From the NCBI GenBank assembly GCA_949296705.1, contig CASFOW010000024.1, positions 1 through 58,010 of the forward strand: DNA of 58,010 nt. Reading direction: 5' to 3'. A program made the position numbers and the translations under genes. The notes beneath the pieces were generated by a model. The model was not told the DNA's origin. It did not search any database and worked only from the letters and a program-made list of their open reading frames with translations. How positions within the stretch are numbered: position 1 is the stretch's first letter; the number at the start of each line of letters is the position of its first letter. Shown piece after piece: positions 15,765 through 16,010 of this stretch. Source of the stretch: an uncultured bacterium. GTDB lineage: Bacteria; Bacillota_I; Bacilli_A; RF39; UBA660.

Positions 15765-16010
15765 ATGGAAAGTATTTTATCTGCTACTATGAATGCGATT
15801 GGCTGGATGTTAGGACTTGCTTTTTTAGGACTGGGAATTGGCATTGGTATTATGGCTTCTAAAGTAGCTGAAGCAGTAGGAAGGAATCCTGAAACTAAAG
15901 CAGATGTCGTTCATTCAGTAATTACGATTTTAATTGTAACTACTGTATTCCTATTATTCTTATTTGCCTTTGTATTTTTCTTACTATTCTTTAATCCTTT
16001 AACTTTGTAG
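15765..16010 (+). CDS. F-ATPase c-subunit-like proteolipid lacking the ion-binding carboxylate
   Basis: This 81-residue hairpin of two membrane helices matches subunit c. Helix 1 has the glycine pattern GLGIGIGI (residues 22-29), followed by [12 protein letters not shown], the equivalent of the conserved R-Q/N-P polar loop that contacts gamma and epsilon. In canonical c subunits an Asp or Glu lies 20 residues after the loop Arg. Here that position (T60) is Thr, and helix 2 is a run of Phe, Leu, Val and Ile with no acidic residue. The ring may therefore form but cannot carry protons or sodium in the usual way. ATG 15765 is chosen over GTG 15756 because AAGGAG ends at 15756. Confidence 0.82.

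Follow-up and report, generated by a model that had tools for sequence, protein, structure and literature searches.

An F1-like operon with giant surface proteins encodes a subunit c lacking the ion-binding carboxylate, the candidate ring of an ion-uncoupled rotary motor

F1-like surface motors have been described as confined to mycoplasmas (PMC3369863, PMC12994834). Among them, the F1-like X0 or Type 3 ATPase is needed for, or works with, the MIB-MIP system; it has no b homologue, the N-terminal helix that binds the stalk is missing from its alpha subunit, and a 12-TM protein forms part of its X0 (PMC3369863, PMC12994834). The Type 2 G1-ATPase, the gliding motor of M. mobile, has been proposed to pull surface legs (PMC11864180, PMC12994834). 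It is a twin motor with an extra N-terminal domain on beta and no peripheral-stalk helix on alpha, its cluster holds no c homologue, and its GliD protein, which has no TM segment, has been proposed to be a b-delta fusion (PMC11864180). Both the G1 and the Type 3 clusters have been described without a subunit c, and the path by which force crosses the membrane has been left open (PMC11864180, PMC12994834).

Here we describe an operon that invites comparison with these systems, found in the genome of an uncultured gut bacterium within the window, the 58,010-nucleotide stretch of DNA analysed as a whole. It comprises 11 co-directional genes, the third of which encodes a protein resembling subunit c (Table 1), and the same gene order recurs at orthologous loci across Bacilli and Clostridia. 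As in mycoplasma Type 3 (MSC_0618-0624), F1-like alpha, beta, gamma and epsilon proteins (epsilon weakly supported here) are encoded together with membrane and surface proteins; Type 3 is not known to pump ions, a point that the operon here would share. As with the G1-ATPase of M. mobile, an F1-like motor is accompanied by giant surface proteins. Unlike Type 3, the operon keeps a subunit c and a b-delta stalk, its alpha and beta belong to a separate clade, and its hosts are Bacilli and Clostridia, while the G1-ATPase occupies a separate branch of the beta tree. The operon's alpha and beta fall below the NCBIfam cut-offs for MSC_0618/0619 and MMOB1660/1670, outside Types 2 and 3. Nor does any operon protein have an NCBIfam match to the 12-TM MSC_0624-like or the MSC_0620-like partner, and the sole polytopic protein has about five helices against the 12 of the X0 partner. 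F1F0 ATP synthase is alike in the fold and loop of c, in alpha, beta, gamma and the b-delta stalk, and in the gene order c-b-delta-alpha-gamma-beta-epsilon; the operon differs from it in having no ion-binding carboxylate and no classical subunit a, in its giant anchored surface proteins, and in a beta subunit of a separate clade. In the open-access literature, taken without bioRxiv preprints, our searches turned up no description of this operon, nor of a c ring entirely without carboxylates.

Table 1. Genes of the operon in order, with their positions in the window and the evidence for each assignment.
Feature	Length (aa)	Position	Strand	Evidence
S1, giant anchored surface protein, FN3-like domains	1735	9123..14330	+	Pfam fn3 5e-9; orthologues in the same place
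S2, anchored surface protein	468	14346..15752	+	Orthologues; hhalign to S1
c-like (putative ring) subunit, carboxylate replaced by T60	81	15765..16010	+	Pfam, profile alignment, orthologues
Peripheral stalk, b-delta-like fusion	244	16027..16761	+	AF2 model, PDB structure matches, hhalign
alpha-like subunit	445	16773..18110	+	Pfam 9.4e-74; P-loop (GDKKTGKS) and arginine motif (SVSRLGGS) intact
gamma subunit	262	18103..18891	+	Pfam ATP-synt 1.8e-22
beta-like catalytic subunit		18866..20230	+	Pfam 2.8e-69; NCBIfam atpD above cut-off
Probable epsilon N-terminal domain	89	20223..20492	+	Position; weak hhalign
Polytopic membrane protein, possible a-like stator	182	20476..21024	+	AF2, weak fold matches
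sp, anchored protein	245	21026..21763	+	Paralogous to S1 N-terminus
S3, giant surface protein	2923	21777..30548	+	Pfam Glug 2.2e-7; orthologues

The c-like reading frame opens with an ATG at 15765 and closes with a stop at 16010. Its product matches Pfam ATP-synt_C (PF00137) at 1.3e-7 and 32.2 bits, over the family's curated cut-off of 24 bits, and carries the loop R40-N-P-E43, which bears out the descent from subunit c put forward in the original prediction. The orthologue profile (A3) matches solved c rings, namely c1 (1.1e-13) and c2 (2.4e-9) of 4bem and the ring of 1yce (2.2e-7). In A. woodii c2 (4bem) the Glu lies 20 residues past the loop Arg, and it aligns opposite T60 with no gap between loop and site, just as had been predicted from a residue count. 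Ion-site acidic residues are absent from both membrane helices of the c-like protein. We also looked for an alternative alignment that would place an acid within the membrane and so overturn this assignment, and found none: the helix-1 sites known from other rings, at Ala24 in E. coli and at the second carboxylate in Fusobacterium, correspond to hydrophobic residues here.

The same state is found throughout the orthologues. The ion-site column of 23 distinct c-like proteins reads Ser in 9, Ala in 8, Thr in 5 and Val in 1, with Asp or Glu in 0/23, so the comparison that might have refuted the predicted substitution upholds it, and the predicted lack of Asp and Glu in helix 2 holds in 23/23. The same script returns Glu at the site in 9/9 ordinary c subunits, several of which come from the same genomes as the c-like orthologues. 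Helix 1 carries an acid at three orthologue loci (L106/L107 and L093), positioned only near the helix ends. Among 20 aligned orthologues G39, R40, N41, P42, E43 and K45 are invariant, as are the glycines of helix 1 and, at its cytoplasmic end, E36; the c loop is the part that touches gamma and epsilon in ATP synthases. On these alignments the ion-binding carboxylate has been lost from the c-like protein, and its loss is a trait of the family beyond the window's own copy. The window's c-like gene and that of the nearest relative, L015 (Candidatus Scybalousia intestinigallinarum), differ at 20 nucleotides, with all 20 differences synonymous, and the protein is therefore under purifying selection; the test uses this one count, NG86 dN/dS being saturated for most pairs. 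Because the c protein of L015 is identical to the window's, the window probably belongs to that species or to a sister of it.

Hairpins of c that lack an ion site occur in A. woodii c1 and V-type c subunits. Those hairpins, however, are a minority within carboxylate-bearing rings, whereas no c in the window's genome has a carboxylate. That genome (95% complete) encodes one PF00137 protein, the c-like protein itself, and has no match to PF00119 (subunit a), so that a subunit a with its essential Arg is missing along with a c bearing a membrane Asp or Glu. Its two PF00006 proteins both come from the operon, and the genome holds no other rotary ATPase. In 13 further genomes (eleven family members together with G566 and G567) the sole c is likewise carboxylate-less and subunit a is absent; there is therefore no carboxylate for the ring to borrow. 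Passage of H+ or Na+ by the normal route, which the original prediction had held impossible, is excluded on sequence grounds, also because the genome lacks both a classical subunit a and a second c ring. Na+ ligation by Ser or Thr is possible in principle, and ions might thus move by an unusual route, through Ser/Thr and backbone ligands or through a ring mixed with carboxylate-bearing c; we consider this very improbable. Ser or Thr does occupy the site in 14/23 orthologues, but Ala or Val does so in 9/23, the 14 genomes have no second c gene and no PF00119, and the candidate stator, the 182-aa protein, has no conserved Arg.

Across the family, PF00119 is found in 1/193 genomes, and the frame that matches there holds a stop. 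The F0F1 ATP synthase thus seems, from these searches, to have been lost across the whole family, and its loss is therefore older than, or independent of, the operon. This distribution would suit the decay of an ATP synthase operon where oxidative phosphorylation has been lost, an explanation that we regard as barely credible: the differences from L015 are exclusively synonymous and the catalytic motifs are kept, the 11-gene order is conserved, and the same derived state occurs in Clostridia that keep a normal F0F1. Selection and distribution both contradict decay. In those five clostridial genomes (G568-G572) the operon stands alongside an ordinary pair of a and c, and is therefore no mere leftover. 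Three of the five carry a second copy of the carboxylate-less system (L093 in G568 C129, L094 in G569 C17 and L095 in G571 C236); in L093 the ion site is Val, and helix 1 has an additional Glu close to its cytoplasmic end. At L018/L097 (G568 C44) the operon is rearranged: the genes for beta, the epsilon-like protein and the membrane protein lie upstream of S1, and sp comes directly after c.

The c-like gene occurs in 12/193 sampled family genomes, a 13th match (G067) being an ordinary c, and in 3/391 genomes of the class around G570, with G570 itself counted. Contigs that carry it are labelled Scybalousia, Bacillales, Lachnospiraceae, Lachnoclostridium, Family XIII, Oscillospiraceae and Clostridiales. 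The beta tree groups the operon family into one clade (100/99) that is separate both from ATP synthases and from Types 2 and 3 of the mycoplasmas; under midpoint rooting, where the root is arbitrary, the clostridial copies are outermost in the family, and the tree is compatible with a transfer of the operon from Clostridia to Bacilli. The alpha tree has several fragmentary rows and long branches that meet, and was used for the clade statement only, not for placing Types 2 and 3. The complete genome G524, which also has a normal F0F1, contains another, divergent cluster with the same organisation (C1:453896-478828; L071 from 3897 onward, and L072). This cluster encodes surface proteins of 2804 and 704 aa, a c whose ion site is Val, a b-delta fusion, a full-length alpha, gamma, beta, epsilon, a membrane protein and a 2506-aa surface protein. 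More ATP-synthase-like than the window operon, it either split off early or lost the carboxylate independently. Immediately after the operon in the window, two adjacent genes (30649-31653 and 31791-32858) encode YhcG/DUF1016 PDDEXK nucleases. A search for phage origin gave no match.

The F1 head is intact in its catalytic motifs and accompanied by gamma, as in F-type enzymes. Beta, which starts at a GTG at 18866 or an ATG at 18878, retains its P-loop and GERSREG, the catalytic Glu motif. The F-type peripheral stalk, b and delta, is likewise represented. The AF2 model of the b-delta-like fusion runs from an N-terminal TM segment through a long helix and a helical domain to a C-terminal beta sheet, and its best matches among solved structures are almost all delta/OSCP chains, mycobacterial b-delta included, none of them passing E 0.001. 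By hhalign its C-terminal half matches delta at E 9.5e-5, against about 0.5 for mismatched controls. The equivalent gene in the G524 cluster has an OSCP match at 9.5e-9 and an NCBIfam delta match; direct hhalign between the two proteins, with a single sequence as template, covers only the C-terminal 28 columns. Sequence-profile searches of the PDB gave no meaningful match for the fusion or the epsilon-like protein, and Pfam searches of their orthologues gave one marginal OSCP match only. The epsilon-like protein itself has no Pfam family; it aligns weakly with epsilon from end to end (hhalign E 0.0095, mismatched control 0.46).

The 182-aa membrane protein is modelled by AF2 (pTM 0.74) with five main helices, the last two of about 31 residues. 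Its top Foldseek match is to subunit a chains at E 0.83, and in VIA-align subunit a recurs at Z 7-9 over about 150 residues, covering the full chain, with unrelated helical bundles scoring alike. Sequence kinship with subunit a was tried and set aside, hhalign being empty, which leaves a weak likeness of fold; its orthologues share no conserved Arg in a membrane helix. In the rotary-motor reading favoured below, the protein would probably be part of the stator.

The remaining genes encode the anchored proteins S1, S2, sp and S3, each with its own N-terminal hydrophobic anchor. In S1 this is a single TM segment, a signal anchor, while S3 has TM segments at both its N- and C-terminus, along with GLUG motifs. 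S1 shares its N-terminal ectodomain with S2 (hhalign E 9.9e-13) and aligns with sp at E 2.2e-7 over about 208 columns; because the three have anchor and ectodomain in common, their sequences suggest a paralogous set around one membrane complex. With giant surface genes on both sides of the motor genes, one could imagine a Sec-independent or post-Sec machine that exports, folds or polymerises these proteins, and ATPases of the FliI/SctN type, which are F1 relatives and appear among the more distant NCBIfam matches here, do serve export. We nonetheless think this improbable: known export ATPases have no c ring, and the anchors of S1, S2, sp and S3 mean that Sec suffices.

We favour instead the reading that the c-like protein forms the membrane ring in a rotary motor that hydrolyses ATP, is uncoupled from ions and passes torque to extracellular proteins, and we put its probability at roughly 0.6. 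The rotor appears meant to turn because catalysis is intact, the stator is retained and the loop is invariant, and its turning would not be for ions because both halves of the ion site are lost. Hydrolysis of ATP in the alpha3beta3 head would turn gamma and the epsilon-like protein; gamma, which would rest on the c ring via the ring's invariant GRNPE loop, would turn the ring within the membrane relative to a stator comprising the b-delta fusion and, probably, the five-helix protein. With neither a carboxylate nor a classical subunit a, rotation would be uncoupled from H+ and Na+, and torque would instead reach anchored, extracellular S1, S2, sp and S3 across the membrane, the ring itself being the candidate force path, perhaps to move or remodel an adhesin or another surface structure. 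As load for the motor, the obvious candidates are the anchored proteins whose genes lie on either side of the F1 and ring genes. Assembly of the ring, its rotation, its coupling to surface proteins and its task at the surface are what we infer; coupling to S1-S3 is suggested by the conserved gene neighbourhood, which, by analogy with the mycoplasma F1-like ATPases, would have this motor act on surface proteins too.

The original prediction had proposed that the ring may have become a mechanical bearing or anchor, a role compatible with the data but unproven. One version of it, in which the ring is a passive anchor and the F1-like ATPase acts by conformational cycling and not by transmitted rotation, draws on the ring's inability to conduct ions and would need the loop and hydrophobic helices only, exactly what is conserved. 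Yet keeping a b-delta stator makes sense only for a rotor that turns relative to the head, and mycoplasma systems without a stator homologue have lost the ring as well (PMC12994834), so we hold the passive anchor to be unlikely, if the least so among the alternatives. The make-up of the operon suggests a role beyond that of a passive bearing: because an intact F1 motor and peripheral stalk adjoin genes for giant anchored surface proteins, it points to torque transmission by a rotary motor.

If this reading is right, the operon would be a natural rotary ATPase with a c ring freed from ion transport, in lineages without an ATP synthase, and would extend F1-like surface motors from mycoplasmas to Bacilli and Clostridia. 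It may represent a laterally transferred class in gut Bacilli and Clostridia, in which a full stator and rotor, c ring included, were repurposed as an ion-free, ATP-driven transmitter of torque across the membrane, turning or pulling giant extracellular adhesins; we propose this wider claim tentatively, at somewhat less than even odds. Such a class, if real, would illustrate a state intermediate between ATP synthase and the motors of mycoplasma gliding and MIB-MIP. The operon would supply an identifiable membrane rotor and stalk, which the mycoplasma systems lack, and the route of F1 torque across the membrane to surface proteins would therefore be directly testable.
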